From NCBI RefSeq assembly GCF_014200675.1, contig NZ_JACHCI010000003.1:372001-436000 (forward strand): a DNA stretch of 64,000 bases, in the 5' to 3' direction. This DNA comes from Janthinobacterium saanense (GTDB lineage: Bacteria; Pseudomonadota; Gammaproteobacteria; Burkholderiales; Burkholderiaceae_D). The notes under the pieces were generated by a model that saw nothing but the letters and a program-made list of their open reading frames with translations, did no database searches and was not told where the DNA came from. Numbering within the stretch: the stretch's first letter is position 1; each line of letters opens with the position of its first letter. The translations under genes and the position numbers were made by a program. Positions 7,631-64,000 of the stretch are shown here, piece after piece.

Positions 7631-8361
7631 CTGCGCGACTCCGCTACAAATTCATAATAATCACTGCGGCAATATGAGTGGGTCAGTTCCACTGCCGCGC
7701 CGTTGTCGAGATAACTGACACGGGTGATGTGCAGCATGGCTTCCCCCGTCTTGATATTGGCCAGCTTGGCCTGTTCCGCCGTGGCGTTGACGGCGCGGAT
7801 ATGCTGCAGCGCGCGCATCGGGATGGTGCCGCGCGACTCCAGGTAGCCGTACAGCGAATCGCTCACCTGCTGCGGGTCCGGCATGTACAGCGCCGGGATA
7901 GTGGTCGTTTCTATCGCCATCACCACTTCGTCGGCCGTGCGCAAACGGCGCAAGCGCGCCACCGGCATATGCGGCGACAGGCCCAGCGACAGCAGTTCCA
8001 GCGGCGCGGCCACGCCGATGTCGCGCTGCAGCCAGCGTGAACCGGCCTTGAAGCCGCGCTGGCGCAGTTCTTCCGAAAAGCTGGTCAGGCGCGACAGCGG
8101 CTGCTCCAGCTTGGGCGTGATATAGGTGCCCGAACCGCGCTTGCGGGTCAGCATGCCGCGGTCGCACAGCATGTCGATCGCCTTGCGCGCCGTGACCCGT
8201 GAGATTTCCAGCAGGTCCGACAGCACGCGCTCGGAGGGCAGGGCCTGGTTGGCGCGCCAGTCGCCGTTGGCGATGCCGTCCGACAGCATGTTCGCCAGTT
8301 GCATGTACAGCGGCGTGTCGCTGGCGGGATTGGGTTTGAAGCTGGAGAGTTTGGCTAGCAT
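7627..8361 (-). CDS. GntR/HutC-family regulator of the GlcNAc operon
   Basis: A 244-residue repressor with an N-terminal winged helix (about residues 15-85, including LPSERVLSDLLEISRVTARK and LTRKRGSGTYI) and a C-terminal UTRA effector domain (about 100-240). This is the HutC branch that contains NagR/YvoA/DasR, which bind glucosamine-6-P or GlcNAc-6-P. Its position between the kinase and nagA suggests autoregulation of the operon. Candidate operators lie upstream of the kinase gene, next to the promoter at 9311-9339. Effector and site are inference. Confidence 0.92.
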   Translation of the reverse strand: MLAKLSSFKPNPASDTPLYMQLANMLSDGIANGDWRANQALPSERVLSDLLEISRVTARKAIDMLCDRGMLTRKRGSGTYITPKLEQPLSRLTSFSEELRQRGFKAGSRWLQRDIGVAAPLELLSLGLSPHMPVARLRRLRTADEVVMAIETTTIPALYMPDPQQVSDSLYGYLESRGTIPMRALQHIRAVNATAEQAKLANIKTGEAMLHITRVSYLDNGAAVELTHSYCRSDYYEFVAESRR

Positions 8362-9236
8362 GGCGCTGTTTCCCGCAGATGGTTGCGTATCAGGCGCAGG
8401 CCGCCTGCCGCCGAGTCGCCCTGAGCCGGCACGACGCGTTGCAGCAGTTCAGCCGGCAGGTAGGCCGACAAGGGCGCCGCCAGGCCGCCGCACAGGGCGA
8501 CCGGCAGGCTGGCGTTCGGATCGAGCGCCCTGGCGATCAGTGCGACTTGCTGGCCCGCTTCGGCCAGGATGCTGCGCGCCACGGCGTTGTTCGGTGCATG
8601 CTCCAGCACCAGGCGCGCCAGTTGCGCGTAGGTAGTCTGCGAGGCGCTGGCCAGCCAGGCCTGCATGGCGTCGCGATGGCCGCCGCACGCGTCGATGATG
8701 GCCGTGGCGAAGGCGCTGCCAGGCACGCGGCCATCGACCACTTGCTGCACATGGCCCATGGCGCGCATGCCGATCCAGGCGCCGCCGGCCTCGTCGCCGG
8801 ACGGGAAGCCCCAGCCGCCGACTTCATGGCGGCTGCCGTCCGCATGCAGCACTTCACCCACGCTGCCGGTGCCGATGGCGACGATGGCGCCCGGCTTGCC
8901 GCTGTGGGCGCCCAGCAGGGTGGTCAGTGCGTCGGACTCCAGCGCCACGTGGGCGTAGCCGGGATTGTGTTCGATGAAGCTGGCGGCCCACTGCTTGTTG
9001 TGCACGCCGGCCAGGCCCAGGCCGATGGCTATCTGCTGCAAGGGCGGCTGCGCCAGGTCGGCCGCGCGGAAGGCCAGGGTGACGGCGTGCGCCACCGAAG
9101 TCCAGGCGCGGTCGATGCCGTGTGCCAGGCCGGAAGGCCCGCTTTGTCCCTGCCCCAGTTCTTGTCCATCAGGGCGCGCCAGGCGTACGCGGGTTCCGCT
9201 ACCCCCTCCGTCGACGCCGATTATGTATTCGATCAT
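8355..9236 (-). CDS. N-acetylglucosamine kinase-like protein, BadF/BadG ATPase family
   Basis: First gene of the operon, 293 residues of the ASKHA fold. The N-terminal phosphate loop is IGVDGGGSGTRVRLA (residues 5-19), followed by a GLGLAGVHN segment, AIVAIGTGSVGEV (second phosphate motif) and ALCGGLAAPL near the C-terminus (adenosine motif). Family members in nag clusters phosphorylate GlcNAc or glucosamine that enters unphosphorylated, which fits ABC or MFS uptake and the absence of a PTS gene. It overlaps the regulator by 7 bp. Exact sugar specificity is not determinable here. Confidence 0.88.
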   Translation of the reverse strand: MIEYIIGVDGGGSGTRVRLARPDGQELGQGQSGPSGLAHGIDRAWTSVAHAVTLAFRAADLAQPPLQQIAIGLGLAGVHNKQWAASFIEHNPGYAHVALESDALTTLLGAHSGKPGAIVAIGTGSVGEVLHADGSRHEVGGWGFPSGDEAGGAWIGMRAMGHVQQVVDGRVPGSAFATAIIDACGGHRDAMQAWLASASQTTYAQLARLVLEHAPNNAVARSILAEAGQQVALIARALDPNASLPVALCGGLAAPLSAYLPAELLQRVVPAQGDSAAGGLRLIRNHLRETAPC

Positions 9237-59855: not shown

Positions 59856-60033
59856 ATGGCCAAAGCACTTCTTCCTGACGACTTGTGGGCGTTGATTCAA
59901 CCTTTGCTACCAGCACAAGTCCCTTCCCCAAAGGCGGACGTGCTCGCATTGACGAGCGTGCCGCCTTTATCTGCATCCCGTTCGTCCTCAAGACCCAATT
60001 CCACCGATCGCGGCAAGGTCGGCTGTTAGACGT
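59856..60033 (+). mobile_element. IS5-like transposase remnant with frameshift
   Basis: ATG 59856 reads MAKALLPDDLWALIQPLLPA then QVPSPK, the N-terminus of an IS5-type transposase. In the canonical protein GGRARIDERAA follows; here that piece appears in a different frame (near 59932-59990), showing a frameshift, and the remainder is lost. The rest of the element is not recognisable. It marks the border to the AT-rich locus. Confidence 0.65.
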
Positions 60034-60282: not shown

Positions 60283-60371
60283 AATTGGCAATTCCGGTGC
60301 GTATAAAAATATGACATTGCCAATTTGTAATATTTTGTTCATTGTCAAATTGGGTTTCTATTTGCAATACT
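60283..60371 (+). promoter_or_regulatory. AT-rich regulatory region of the peptide-export locus
   Basis: AATTGGCAAT (60283-60292) and ATTGCCAATT (60316-60325) are a perfect 10-bp inverted repeat. TTGTCA (60342-60347), 18 bp and AATACT (60366-60371) form a possible promoter downstream. The whole stretch 60034-60456 has no convincing gene. The dyad would be an operator candidate for the adaptor gene at 60457. Confidence 0.45.
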
Positions 60372-60456
60372 TCAATCAGAATGGATTTGAAAAATATCAC
60401 CATGTTCATATCTTATTAAGTTGATATATTAAATTTTTTTCTTGGGCATAAGTTAC

Positions 60457-61767
60457 ATGCATCAAAAAAAGCAGGAAATATTCTTTTTTAGGCCAGAGGT
60501 AACGTCTTCTCAGAATCAGCTCAGCCGTGGTGCAATCAGGCTTTCACAACCTATTTCGGGTTGGCTAGCCACAGCTATATCCTTATTAATTATTTTTTTA
60601 TTTATTATTTATGTAACGTGTGGCAGTGTTACAAGAAAAGATCGAGTAACAGGAATTACTGTACCTGTCGGTGGAAATATTGGTGTTTTTGCATTAAGTA
60701 GCGGTGTTGTAATGAAATTTCTAGTTAATGAAGGCGAACAGGTCAAGGCTGGTCAACCATTGTTTGAGATTTCGACGGAGCGACAAAGTGATCATGGTGA
60801 GGTCTCTGCTTTGGTAGCTCAGCAATTATCCAGCCGAAAAATAAGTCTGCAGGCAGAACTTCGACTCACACTGCTTAATTTAAGTGAAAAACGAGATTCA
60901 ATCAAAAAAAAACTAAAAACACTGGAATCTGAGATGTTGCAGATTCAACAGGAAATAACATTGGCTGAACGCCGCGTTTATCTCGCACAGTCCAGCATGT
61001 CAAAATATGAAACATTGCAGACCGATGGATTTATTTCAGGACTTCAATTGCAACAAAAAGAAGGAGATATGATTGATGCAGTTTCACATCTTTCTAGTTT
61101 AAAGCGCGATCGTTTACAGATTCAAGAGAATATGCAGGATTTGGCTAATGAAGATCGGACACTGGCACGCACGATTGGAAGCGAACAGGCTCAGTTTGAG
61201 GGGAGCTTGGCGAATCTTGAGCAGCAGATCGTAGAAAACAATGATCGTAAGTCTAATTTTATTACAGCCCCAGAAACAGGTATTGTAGCCACAATTATTT
61301 GTCAGCACGGTCAAGTAGTTAATACTGGACAAACACTAGCAATGCTTATTCCATCTTCATCGGGAAAGTCGCTATTAGAAGCTCAACTTTACGTTCCAAG
61401 TCGTACTGCAGGATTCATATCGCCAGGGAAAACTGTGTTAATACGTTTTCATGCATTTCCTTATGAAAAATTCGGCCTCTATAAGGGAATAGTAGGTGAT
61501 ATTAGTAAGACGCCATTTGCTCCAAATGAATTACCCCCTAGTTTGGCTAGTACCATATTAAGTAACGCATCAAGAAACACATCTGGATACGGCGGCGCTG
61601 AGGGTTTGTACCGAGTTAAAGTGAAGTTGGAACAGCAGGGCGTCTTGGCATATGGAAAAATCCAAGATTTAAAGCCTGCGATGACATTAGAAGCAGATAT
61701 TGTTCAAGAGCGGCGAAAAATTTGGGAATGGATTGCGGAGCCAATTCTTGCGATTGCAAAAAGATAG
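60457..61767 (+). CDS. HlyD/CvaA-family membrane fusion protein
   Basis: A 436-residue periplasmic adaptor. One membrane helix near residues 35-54 (GWLATAISLLIIFLFIIYVT), a split biotinyl-lipoyl-like domain (VNEGEQVKAGQPLFEIST, about 85-105, and later ITAPETGIVATIICQHGQVV), and a long coiled coil (about 125-255). The C-terminal VPSRTAGFISPGKTVLIRFH, then AFPYEKFGLYKGIVGDISKT is the CvaA-type beta-barrel. Together with the C39 ABC exporter downstream it should form a type I secretion channel with TolC. AT-rich codon use contrasts with genes before 59 kb, showing acquisition. Confidence 0.92.
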   Translation: MHQKKQEIFFFRPEVTSSQNQLSRGAIRLSQPISGWLATAISLLIIFLFIIYVTCGSVTRKDRVTGITVPVGGNIGVFALSSGVVMKFLVNEGEQVKAGQPLFEISTERQSDHGEVSALVAQQLSSRKISLQAELRLTLLNLSEKRDSIKKKLKTLESEMLQIQQEITLAERRVYLAQSSMSKYETLQTDGFISGLQLQQKEGDMIDAVSHLSSLKRDRLQIQENMQDLANEDRTLARTIGSEQAQFEGSLANLEQQIVENNDRKSNFITAPETGIVATIICQHGQVVNTGQTLAMLIPSSSGKSLLEAQLYVPSRTAGFISPGKTVLIRFHAFPYEKFGLYKGIVGDISKTPFAPNELPPSLASTILSNASRNTSGYGGAEGLYRVKVKLEQQGVLAYGKIQDLKPAMTLEADIVQERRKIWEWIAEPILAIAKR

Positions 61768-61895
61768 CCATATTTTTGCGATCGTATATTGTGGTATTTT
61801 TTGTTCTATTGAAAACAATCAATTCGCAATTATAATATAAAATTATTTTTCTAAAATAAAAATCAGGGAAAATATATAAAGATTCGTAATGAGAA

Positions 61896-61915
61896 GGTTC
61901 AGGAATTATTGAACC
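61896..61915. repeat. Inverted repeat GGTTCA-N8-TGAACC
   Basis: A perfect 6-bp dyad between the adaptor and the double-glycine peptide gene, in a 245-bp gap (61768-62012). It may be an operator or leader hairpin for the precursor gene. AAAGGGG at 61997-62003 is the ribosome binding site of that gene. Confidence 0.35.
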
Positions 61916-62012
61916 AGGAATGCGAAGGCCGTGCCGTTAATTGAGTCAAGGACGGAAAATCATCCATGCCGAATGGTATGTCAATATTTAAAATGTAAAG
62001 GGGTTGGATATT

Positions 62013-62375
62013 ATGTATGTAATCGAAAATGAAATTTTTGATCTGATTGGTGGTGGTGGACCGGCAGCTCCTACGCCAGTAAAGGGCGGTGGAAGCGCAA
62101 CTTCGGGCCCGACTGGTTCGTCGGCTAATTGCCCTCCAGGTACAATTCCGATTGCGGTCAGTGGTAATGTTACTGCAACAATTGCCGGTGTTCAGGTCAC
62201 TACTAACGGGGGATTGGCCTCTTGTATAACTGTTAATAATGGTGGCAATAATGGCGGAAATAACAATGGCGGAAATAACAATGGCGGAAATAATAGCAGT
62301 GACAGCGGCAGCGGCAGCGGTGGCAGCGGTGGCAATCAGAAAAAGATGTTCATAACAACGGATGACGATGAATAA
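62013..62375 (+). CDS. Double-glycine leader peptide, microcin/bacteriocin-like precursor
   Basis: A 120-residue precursor. The leader MYVIENEIFDLIGG has E at -8, I at -7, L at -4 and GG at -2/-1, the classical double-glycine pattern cut by C39 peptidases. The core starts GGPAAPTPVKGG and holds two Cys (NCPPGT and ASCITV) that could form a disulfide. An Asn/Gly repeat region (about residues 77-92) and a Ser/Gly-rich stretch (SSDSGSGSGGSGGN) follow, and it ends MFITTDDDE. The Ser/Gly-rich C-terminus recalls siderophore-microcins, but here it is followed by an acidic tail. No database family is recognised. ATG 62013 has AAAGGGG upstream. Confidence 0.8.
   Translation: MYVIENEIFDLIGGGGPAAPTPVKGGGSATSGPTGSSANCPPGTIPIAVSGNVTATIAGVQVTTNGGLASCITVNNGGNNGGNNNGGNNNGGNNSSDSGSGSGGSGGNQKKMFITTDDDE
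62250..62294 (+). repeat. Three tandem 15-bp repeats in the peptide gene
   Basis: AATGGCGGAAATAAC is repeated at 62250-62264, 62265-62279 and 62280-62294 (last base T), after a partial 12-bp copy at 62238-62249. Each unit encodes NGGNN. Such repeats vary in number by slippage, so the Asn/Gly linker length probably differs between strains. Confidence 0.85.
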
Positions 62376-62397
62376 CGTGATTAAAAAGTGATTGAGA

Positions 62398-62429
62398 TGG
62401 TGCTCGAGTGTGATTTTTCTTGAGCACCA
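62398..62429 (+). terminator. Hairpin after the peptide gene (attenuator or mRNA 3' end)
   Basis: TGGTGCTCGAG (62398-62408) pairs with CTTGAGCACCA (62419-62429), 10 of 11. No long U-run follows, so it may be a partial terminator or a stabilising 3' hairpin that gives the precursor more message than the downstream genes. Confidence 0.55.
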
Positions 62430-62497
62430 AATATGTCTTATATTTCAATATGATTTTCATTTTTTACTTTAAAGTAATTTTTTAAACAAATTAATAA

Positions 62498-63646
62498 ATG
62501 ATAAAAAATAAAAAGTCGGCGTTGTTGTTTTTAGTTTTATTTGTTTTTTCAAATTTTTCATTTGCCGCTAAAGAAGAAGACCAATTATTGTCGCGATTGA
62601 AAAAATTCCAATGGTCCAATGTATTGGAGGAAGTCTCACCATGTCCCTCTTTAGAATGCCACCTTATTTGGGCAGCGCCGGCGATGGGCCTGGGGGATGC
62701 GGGAGTTTATGCTCATAGGGTGAAAGAAAATGGGATGCAAGAATATGCGAATAAAAATGGTGTAAGCCAAAACTTTGATGCGGTAAAAAATCTAGAATCA
62801 CTCAAACCGACAAATCCATGGCATTTTAATAAAAAATATCAAATTCAGATAAAAAATAAATCTTCCAGAACAAAAAATGAACCAAAAGACATGGCTGTCG
62901 AGTCACGTGTCTTTATTGGGATTCTTGTTAATGACGCGCCTGTCGATGTTATTTTTGACACTGGCGCCACGCTGAGCCTACCGGCGGGAAGTGTTGCCGC
63001 AGATACATTGGATGTATTGGATATTCCAGCTAATAGTCCTTCGGCATTGGGGAAGAACGATGTTGTTGCATTTTCGACGGCAAAAGAAGTTTCTATTGGA
63101 GATATTAAAATAAATAATTTGATGGCAAAGAAAAAAGAAGGATTGCCCAAATTAGATATCAATGCGGTCGGATTATTTGGCTATGATTTTTTACTCAGAT
63201 TTGACACCGTCAACGTCGATTTACATTCAGGGGTAATAAAGTTTAACTCATTAAATTATAAAAAAGATAATTGCTCTCCCATGGAAATGGCGCTTGATAA
63301 AAATCGGATACCCGCCGGATTGGTAGTGGATATCATGATTGATAATGAATGGTTTAAAGCCCGTATAGATACCGGCGCCAATGTCGATGTCTTGTTGCAT
63401 GGGAAAGATATCATGCCATGGAAAAATGGAAAAATGTTAAATATTCTTGGGATCGATACGGCTGGTAACACTACACCGCTAGAGGAATTTGAAGATAATA
63501 TTTCCTTGAGTAAAGTAACATCCCCTCATACGATTGTTCGAACTCCTTTTTCTAATGATACTTTTAAAGTTACACTAGGAATAAAATTCTTTGCTGGCCA
63601 TAACTTCACTTTTGATTTTAAAAATAGTCAATTTTGTTTAAATTAA
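62498..63646 (+). CDS. Exported protein with two retropepsin-like aspartyl protease domains
   Basis: A 382-residue protein with signal peptide (KSALLFLVLFVFSNFSFAAK). First unit about residues 133-250: VIFDTGATLSLP with catalytic-type DTG at 154-156, and GLFGYDFLLRFDTVNVDLHS as the later retropepsin motif. Second unit about 272-382: ARIDTGANVDVLL with DTG at 291-293 and VTLGIKFFAGHNFTFDF. Both units look complete, so one chain can form a pepsin-like two-lobe enzyme. It lies between the peptide and the C39 exporter, suggesting periplasmic processing, degradation or immunity. Such a protease is not part of known microcin loci to my knowledge. Confidence 0.82.
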   Translation: MIKNKKSALLFLVLFVFSNFSFAAKEEDQLLSRLKKFQWSNVLEEVSPCPSLECHLIWAAPAMGLGDAGVYAHRVKENGMQEYANKNGVSQNFDAVKNLESLKPTNPWHFNKKYQIQIKNKSSRTKNEPKDMAVESRVFIGILVNDAPVDVIFDTGATLSLPAGSVAADTLDVLDIPANSPSALGKNDVVAFSTAKEVSIGDIKINNLMAKKKEGLPKLDINAVGLFGYDFLLRFDTVNVDLHSGVIKFNSLNYKKDNCSPMEMALDKNRIPAGLVVDIMIDNEWFKARIDTGANVDVLLHGKDIMPWKNGKMLNILGIDTAGNTTPLEEFEDNISLSKVTSPHTIVRTPFSNDTFKVTLGIKFFAGHNFTFDFKNSQFCLN

Positions 63647-63662
63647 TTAAGAAAAATAAAAA

Positions 63663-64000
63663 ATGAGGATACAGTTGCAGTCTGAGGCAAGCGAATGTGG
63701 ACTAGCTTGCTTGGCCATGATTGCCAGTTATTATGGTCATCACACCAGTCTTACGGATCTTCGTCAGAAATTTTCAGTCAGTTTAAAAGGTATAACTCTT
63801 GCTCAATTGATGAGGCATGCAAGCGCTTTGAGTTTATCTATCAGACCGCTGCGTGCCGAGCTGGCGGAAATTCCGAAAATAAAACTACCTTGTATACTTC
63901 ACTGGGATCTCAATCACTTTGTAGTATTAAAAAAAATAACAAAAGACTTTCGAGGTAATATTAATCTTGTTTTGCTCGACCCAGCTTTAGGTGAACGCTG
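63663..64000 (+). CDS. C39-peptidase ABC exporter (CvaB-like), 3' end outside window
   Basis: The first 112 residues are a C39 bacteriocin-processing peptidase domain: oxyanion Gln6, nucleophile Cys12 in SECGLACLAMI, His85 in NHFVVL and Asp106 in LLDPALGE; all three catalytic residues are present. The family continues with a membrane domain and an ATPase that lie beyond base 64000. The ATG is 16 bp after the protease gene. It should cleave the GG leader of the peptide at 62013 and pump the core through the CvaA-like adaptor. Confidence 0.93.
   Translation, partial: MRIQLQSEASECGLACLAMIASYYGHHTSLTDLRQKFSVSLKGITLAQLMRHASALSLSIRPLRAELAEIPKIKLPCILHWDLNHFVVLKKITKDFRGNINLVLLDPALGER

Follow-up and report, generated by a model that had tools for sequence, protein, structure and literature searches.

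A Microcin-Type Export Locus of Janthinobacterium saanense with an Exported Aspartic Peptidase as a Candidate Immunity Factor

Introduction

The window analysed here, a 64,000-nucleotide stretch of Janthinobacterium saanense DNA, ends in a peptide export island in which a double-glycine cargo peptide is paired with an exported tandem aspartic peptidase. In relatives this protease is swapped at the same place for unrelated peptidases, which suggests that the maker is protected by cutting its own peptide—we give about an even chance to the reading that the peptidase is the immunity factor of a cargo-peptidase pair and destroys re-entering peptide. The original prediction had offered three roles for the protease, namely maturation of the core, immunity, and action on the target. 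We tentatively favour immunity over maturation because a lone copy of the protease exists, the protease is paired with the cargo, and its slot is exchanged for immunity-type genes.

The mechanism we propose would begin with the C39 domain of the exporter, which may cut the peptide after its two glycines; the core would then be exported through an ABC-HlyD channel together with a TolC encoded elsewhere, and would harm related cells that lack the partner peptidase. The protease, exported by its own putative signal peptide, would meet re-entering or leaked core in the periplasm and destroy it there, which would let the maker and its kin survive.

The Export Island

The island extends from 60.4-65.8 kb, with the 3' end of the exporter past the window edge, and contains four genes on the forward (+) strand, in this order: an HlyD adaptor, a 120-aa double-glycine peptide, an exported tandem retropepsin-like protease, and a C39 ABC exporter. 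All of these parts, as well as an operator-like dyad in front of them, had been predicted, and all are present in the order claimed. After the cargo and export genes are assigned, the protease is the sole island gene remaining, which on gene content favours an immunity role; neither a receptor gene nor a regulator gene was found among the genes of the island.

The GC content of 2-kb windows is 0.37-0.44 from 59001 on, against about 0.55-0.67 elsewhere in the window, which agrees with the predicted AT-rich composition; the best explanation is a horizontally acquired peptide-toxin locus, foreign in base composition. The broken IS5-like transposase that had also been cited for transfer is a weak sign: a possible IS4/5-type remnant of 57 codons (59856-60029, +) matches PF13340 at E 0.028, below the cut-off, and the supposed second piece had no match in the Pfam scan. 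The remnant is dispensable for the reading of the locus.

The dyad (60283-60325, no strand assigned) is a 10-bp perfect inverted repeat with arms at 60283-60292 and 60316-60325 and a 23-nt spacer. The operon upstream region (60320-60439, +) is related by local alignment to the DNA before a lone protease gene in Janthinobacterium sp. K2E3, and the left dyad arm lies outside the stretch that aligns. Scans for promoters (22 promoter-like sites vs 17.8 expected) and terminators (8 terminator-like sites vs 5.8 expected) were uninformative.

Adaptor, Exporter, and Cargo Peptide

The HlyD/CvaA-type periplasmic adaptor (60442-61767, +) is 441 aa long from a TTG start, with an ATG at 60457; it matches PF13437 above the cut-off (E 1.6e-15) and TIGR01843 at E 1.6e-40, yet under the cut-off of the latter. 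The ABC exporter starts with a C39 peptidase domain (63663-64000, +), of which the window part matches PF03412 at E 9.3e-29; the whole gene encodes 718 aa and runs to window-equivalent position 65819 (contig L002:5663-7819). Read by eye, the Cys/His/Asp triad of the C39 domain and the ABC motifs are presumably present.

The cargo peptide (62013-62375, +; 120 aa) was read from the sequence and has a relative, P0016. Its likely start is the ATG at 62013, its 14-aa leader (62013-62054) reads MYVIENEIFDLIGG, and its Gly-rich core holds two Cys. The leader appears to be of the double-glycine type with a predicted C39 cleavage site, and similar leaders are found in sibling loci. The peptide has no Pfam match, and P0016, 88% identical, was its one relative besides itself in a search of 5.8 billion proteins. 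The longest contig is 13167 bases both for P0016 and for a protease relative, P0001; we infer that the two lie on one shared contig. Across 40 genomes of the genus, a convincing match to the peptide occurs in its own genome only. A widespread peptide family was rejected as an explanation—three other genus genomes match at E 0.005-0.009, within very long ORFs.

As in class II microcin and C39 systems, the island has a C39 ABC exporter, an adjoining HlyD/CvaA-type fusion protein, and a GG-leader cargo. It has no small membrane immunity protein adjoining the cargo, the only extra gene being that of the 382-aa protease, and we therefore class the locus as a variant and not as a plain class II microcin member. 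The predicted microcin-type peptide export locus with an exported two-DTG protease is supported.

The Exported Protease

The protease gene (62498-63646, +) encodes an exported tandem retropepsin-like aspartic peptidase of 382 aa, assigned from PF13975 (E 7.6e-7), an alignment, a structure model, and fold matches. The N-terminus is signal-like, and beyond this start the protein is not membrane-embedded. Both active-site Asp, in D154-T-G and D291-T-G, are invariant in an alignment of 15 sequences. The model (pLDDT 84.9) is that of a single-chain, two-lobed aspartic peptidase; it matches pepsins over 108-382 and the exported Bacteroides fragilis protein 9iy9 over 21-382. Two D-T/S-G sites in two lobes agree with membership of clan AA, and by sequence and model the protein is a predicted two-lobed aspartic peptidase with intact active-site Asp.

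The protease family is rare, with 14 relatives among 5.8 billion proteins; P0001 is 96% identical, and the metagenome homologues P0003, P0004, P0007, and P0011 have longest contigs of 4.5-10 kb. On mobile carriers, tblastn was empty in 72,556 plasmid and 50,697 phage records; the viral_contigs scan gave no protease relative, and the genome_contigs scan gave a single protease locus, that of K2E3. For the family, 294 genomes were sampled from a larger set and searched with a profile; apart from the window's protease this gave five matches, all weak and to a single domain, with K2E3, probably outside the draw, absent from them; a profile search of 300 genomes of the order at E 1e-6 returned the own gene only.

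A Lone Protease at the Same Site

Two genome loci were found for the protease. In one of them, at the corresponding site of K2E3, the protease stands alone, with both catalytic Asp kept; neither a match to the peptide nor a close exporter was found in that genome. The DNA upstream of the K2E3 gene is related to that upstream of the island, with a local alignment score of 61 that none of 500 dinucleotide shuffles reached (maximum 45). A protease kept alone at the same site, behind related upstream DNA, would favour immunity. The prediction had named a common lone protease as a sign against itself; the protease proves rare, but one of the two genome loci found is lone. A same-site survey over the genus matched the upstream neighbour gene in only 2 of 40 genomes.

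The K2E3 protease could also be a relic, which counts against immunity: its gene has diverged far more than the flanking DNA and has a different GC content, and the lone state is one case. Between the window and K2E3 proteases the codon-position identities are 0.71/0.79/0.43, with synonymous sites saturated in a dN/dS attempt; as far as codon positions go, these values show a protein under constraint across the window-K2E3 divergence, not necessarily while lone.

Sibling Loci of the Exporter Group

A peptidase-like gene lies downstream of a GG-type cargo in 15 of the 26 loci with the closest exporters within the bacterial family, or in 13 of 26 if only strict GG leaders are counted (leaving out L056, whose two cargos have leaders ending in GA, and L063, whose leader has SG-TG for GG). 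The corresponding figure is at least 1 in 23 less related C39 loci, a control group that comprises 23 of the lower-identity exporter matches and not every one. This difference, at the level of gene neighbourhoods, appears to favour immunity. Cargos were chosen by pattern and by eye; the Pfam tallies cover 25/60 and 25/65 families and may miss single-occurrence control peptidases. Retropepsin counts are low, as the scan threshold missed the K2E3 protease and caught the window protease only at E 1e-4. In control locus L047, a 749-aa gene resembles an S41 peptidase by eye.

The partners in the exporter group comprise TraB/PrgY, CPBP, M16, and transglutaminase-like proteins (the last, in L063 and L073, not established peptidases) and a second tandem retropepsin. 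The slot is taken by a TraB-family gene in L032, L033, L057, L060, L061, and L070, with TraB/PrgY among the commonest partners (5 exporter-group loci); CPBP genes fill it in five sibling loci, and M16 and S9 genes are present in L055 and L065. TraB and CPBP occur in the slot far above chance, with p-values that are a guide only, same-genus siblings (L067, L068, L071) and same-genome siblings (L060, L061) not being independent. The cargo-peptidase pair sits between HlyD and the exporter in most loci, before HlyD in L032, and after the exporter in L067, L068, and L071; a pair that stays joined while its place shifts seems to favour immunity. Cargo and peptidase probably behave as one cassette, with unrelated peptidase families put to the same use.

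In L031 the gene in the slot encodes a lipoprotein, and in L062 and L069 it encodes a small protein that is hydrophobic as judged by eye. These are the usual kinds of immunity gene, and their presence in place of a peptidase would again favour immunity. Against it stand L055, L057, L063, and L065, where partners have no peptidase match or several enzymes are found. The prediction had named the lack of a conserved GG-leader peptide at this site in relatives as a further sign against itself; the peptide is not conserved within the genus, but a GG-type cargo with an adjoining peptidase-like gene recurs in related loci. The neighbourhood check that had been proposed found GG-type cargos paired there with other peptidase families.

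Extended to the whole exporter group, the immunity reading becomes more tentative and falls short of an even chance: the group may represent polymorphic secreted peptides with proteolytic immunity, each cargo having its own destroyer peptidase from unrelated families (aspartic, TraB/Tiki-type, M16, CPBP, perhaps ClpP-like, transglutaminase-like). To our knowledge, the pepsin-like enzyme of the window would be the first aspartic peptidase in such a role. If this is true, Gram-negative peptide toxins have an enzymatic immunity class missed by searches for small membrane immunity proteins, and the paired peptidases are ready-made cargo-specific proteases. New exported peptides might be sought wherever a peptidase gene, a GG-leader gene, and a C39 exporter gene are neighbours, and the sibling loci form one set for testing protease roles in bacteriocin clusters.

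The protease might instead act on the target cell, in export quality control, or on other periplasmic proteins, its location being unrelated to the cargo. The lone copy fits this, as does the nearest solved fold, 9iy9, an exported protein whose role is unassigned here; we nevertheless regard it as improbable, given that several unrelated peptidase families fill the slot and that a general enzyme would not need the pairing. 9iy9, a putative endopeptidase, differs from the island protease in being only 15% identical, and its entry name was not found in a literature search.

Relation to Known Systems

Like class II microcins of the MccV/colicin V type, the island combines a GG-leader cargo, a C39 ABC exporter, and an HlyD-type adaptor with an extra gene adjoining the cargo, the place of immunity genes in those systems according to passages of PMC10233263. 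The same passages give known microcin immunity proteins as membrane proteins of 51-216 aa, whereas the island has a 382-aa exported aspartic peptidase, an analogy that weighs against immunity; they also describe microcin C immunity as a peptidase. The 120-aa island cargo further differs in its long Gly-rich tail and has no match to a described family. Elsewhere, SaNSR is described in excerpts of PMC4828448 as protecting by nisin cleavage. Among the open-licence papers listed, none describes a GG cargo with its C39 exporter in the company of a TraB or aspartic peptidase.

The main rival to immunity is maturation, in which the C39 domain would remove the leader and the protease would then trim the exported core to its active form, either within the periplasm or on the surface of the cell. 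One partner per cargo equally fits a cargo-specific processing enzyme, and M16 and other proteases cut leaders in several modified-peptide pathways (excerpts of PMC10885120); the M16 and S9 genes of L055 and L065 would fit this role. The CAAX/CPBP (Abi) proteases are comparable in being peptidases encoded in bacteriocin clusters; the island enzyme is unlike them in clan and in not being membrane-embedded. Excerpts of PMC9298176 report such proteases as bacteriocin immunity in some cases, but SilX, a CAAX protease of a bacteriocin cluster, as required for production, probably in signal-peptide processing, and not for immunity—by analogy, a point against our preferred reading. We consider maturation rather unlikely: the leader cut would already be made by the C39 domain, the K2E3 genome gave neither a peptide match nor a close exporter, and immunity-type genes replace the protease in sibling slots.

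PrgY/TraB of enterococcal plasmids is thought to degrade the pheromone peptide of its own cell (excerpts of PMC7117660), and TraB-family genes occur in sibling slots; the island enzyme differs in family and host, and the peptide in the enterococcal case belongs to a pheromone system and is no C39 cargo. By extension, the island peptide could be an intercellular signal that the protease clears from the maker's periplasm, and the frequency of TraB/PrgY partners would fit. We think this improbable in view of the island's gene content, without receptor or regulator, and of the better fit of a microcin-like plan; some sibling cargos, among them the phospholipase A2 in L031, look toxin-like, not signal-like.

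Peptidase-like partners of related exporters

At about 60 kb the GC content of the window drops from roughly 0.6 to roughly 0.4, and the four genes of the island lie on the plus strand in the order given by the original prediction: an HlyD adaptor (60442-61767), a double-glycine (GG) peptide (62013-62375), an exported protease (62498-63646), and a C39 ABC exporter, which starts at 63663 and ends, in the 444-kb contig of this genome (G000), at window-equivalent 65819. The flanking genes are GC-rich—a GDSL lipase before the island and a small secreted-looking protein after it (7885-8424 of L002, the fetched stretch of the same contig)—and no further plausible gene was seen in the island as read in window and contig. 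At 61896-61915, in the gap that separates the adaptor gene from the peptide gene, GGTTCA and TGAACC can pair into a short stem-loop, which is terminator-like on the minus strand.

Exporter searches in the genus and family returned 25 further loci (L-handles) at 59-70% identity, giving 26 with the window's own; the DNA of each was retrieved and inspected. The most frequent arrangement is HlyD, cargo (the exported GG-leader product), partner (the gene beside it), exporter. Partners were identified by Pfam, and in 15 of the 26 loci they are peptidase-like: TraB/PrgY/gumN in L032, L057, L060, L061, and L070 (in L070 the match is short, E 1.2e-7); CPBP in L056, L065, L067, L068, and L071; tandem retropepsin in the window and L058 (two matched stretches, the first site D-T-G and the second D-T-A); M16 in L055; and transglutaminase-like with DUF3857 in L063, where a JmjC gene intervenes, and L073. 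Cargo leaders end in GA in L056 (its cargos) and in SG-TG in L063. Weaker cases are a CPBP below cut-off without EExxxR (L054, E 6e-4), a ClpP-like partner (L059, E 0.0026), and an HExxH protein without a Pfam match (L053). The non-fitting loci hold a lipoprotein beside a phospholipase A2 cargo (L031), small partners without a Pfam match (L062, L069), a graspetide-like ATP-grasp (L072), a short GG ORF with no peptidase found (L074), or no visible cargo (L064, L066, L075).

Same-strand neighbouring ORFs of 90 aa or more were collected with a single script from these loci (group A, 132 ORFs) and from 23 less related C39 loci (group B, 112 ORFs), and all were scanned. CPBP (six members) and TraB (five) are the two commonest families in group A, which also holds retropepsin (2), transglutaminase (2), S9 (1), and M16 (1); the sixth CPBP, in L057, follows the exporter and does not adjoin a cargo. 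Group B has one TraB among the 25 of 65 families listed. It belongs to L033, whose genes are arranged exactly as in the window, with a TraB protein standing where the window has its protease, and which fell into the control because its exporter is only 54% identical. Peptidase-like partners occur in 15/26 loci versus at least 1/23 (Fisher p 5.9e-5). Against a background of 21 genomes (123.7 Mb, sizes summed by hand), 6 of 31 TraB matches lie in exporter loci (L033 included, one weak; expected 0.05-0.07), as do 6 of 68 CPBP matches (expected 0.11-0.16); a seventh CPBP (G263:C7:251390) sits just 5' of L055's genes. Retropepsins number 17 in 22 genomes, two of them in exporter loci (expected 0.03-0.04).

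GG peptides, adaptors, and C39 exporters are known kinds, as are CPBP genes in bacteriocin clusters; among the open-licence papers listed by the literature searches, none was seen that describes an aspartic peptidase as partner in a bacteriocin-type cluster, or several peptidase families, unrelated to one another, in a single exporter group.

A lone protease in K2E3

In Janthinobacterium sp. K2E3 (G027), of the same genus as G000, the site is flanked by stretches of 1334 and 6364 bp that share 89% and 92% identity with the window's genome. The protease gene between them has an uninterrupted reading frame and retains both catalytic Asp residues; it is 60% identical to the window's at the protein level and 64-66% at the DNA level. 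Nothing else of the island aligned there. The 321 bp 5' of this gene can be aligned with 60320-60439, the upstream region of the operon, at a score of 61, the maximum in 500 dinucleotide shuffles being 45. No peptide match was found in the K2E3 genome, where the exporters closest to the window's reach 49% and 37% identity. Divergence is far higher in the protease gene than in its flanks, and its GC content differs too (0.51 vs 0.37), so alleles were probably exchanged at the site; the K2E3 version need not descend from the window's. Whichever the history, the K2E3 protease lies behind related upstream DNA, with neither peptide nor exporter. Elsewhere in K2E3, a distant C39 locus (L050:7375-9263, minus strand) encodes a GG-leader cargo of 226 aa that matches DUF4329/JAB weakly and adjoins a Fic-domain protein.

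Role of the partner

Cargo and partner stay together while their position relative to HlyD and exporter varies, and where a locus has two cargos (L055, L057, L059) a partner gene follows each of them, not every one with a clear peptidase match; it is therefore probably the cargo that the partner serves, rather than the exporter. In microcin systems, immunity genes occupy this same place beside the cargo (PMC10233263). The lone K2E3 copy is a better fit to kept immunity than to maturation of the cargo by its partner, and we consider maturation rather unlikely. The strongest published warning against an immunity reading is SilX, a CAAX protease that bacteriocin production requires and immunity does not (PMC9298176). 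By motif reading, most clear partners keep catalytic motifs: both GxxH motifs in 4/6 TraB genes, EExxxR and FxxxH in 6/6 clear CPBP genes, and HxxEH in the M16 gene. Together, the cargo pairing, the microcin immunity slot, the lone K2E3 copy, and the kept motifs favour proteolytic immunity, in which the partner peptidase would act on its cargo; we give this reading about an even chance, and regard signal control as improbable and a role unlinked to the cargo as equally so.

Other observations

In L031 (exporter 63% identical), the GG-leader cargo (7831-8337, minus strand) carries a prokaryotic phospholipase A2 domain (PF09056, E 3.5e-14) and is followed by a lipoprotein-like gene (8434-8865, minus strand): an exported enzyme and its probable immunity gene. 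The G185 genome's L053 and L065 have broken exporter and adaptor genes; IS21-type transposase genes lie within these loci or close by, and the loci are either decaying or mobile. JmjC_2-type genes occur in L063 (3435-4325, plus strand) and in another C39 locus, L047 (1070-11129, plus strand), the latter adjoining a putative lantibiotic dehydratase, as suggested by the group tally; modified peptides are possible in both. In the graspetide-like cluster L072 (4221-9122, plus strand), two short GG-leader ORFs are separated from the exporter by an MvdD-type ATP-grasp gene.
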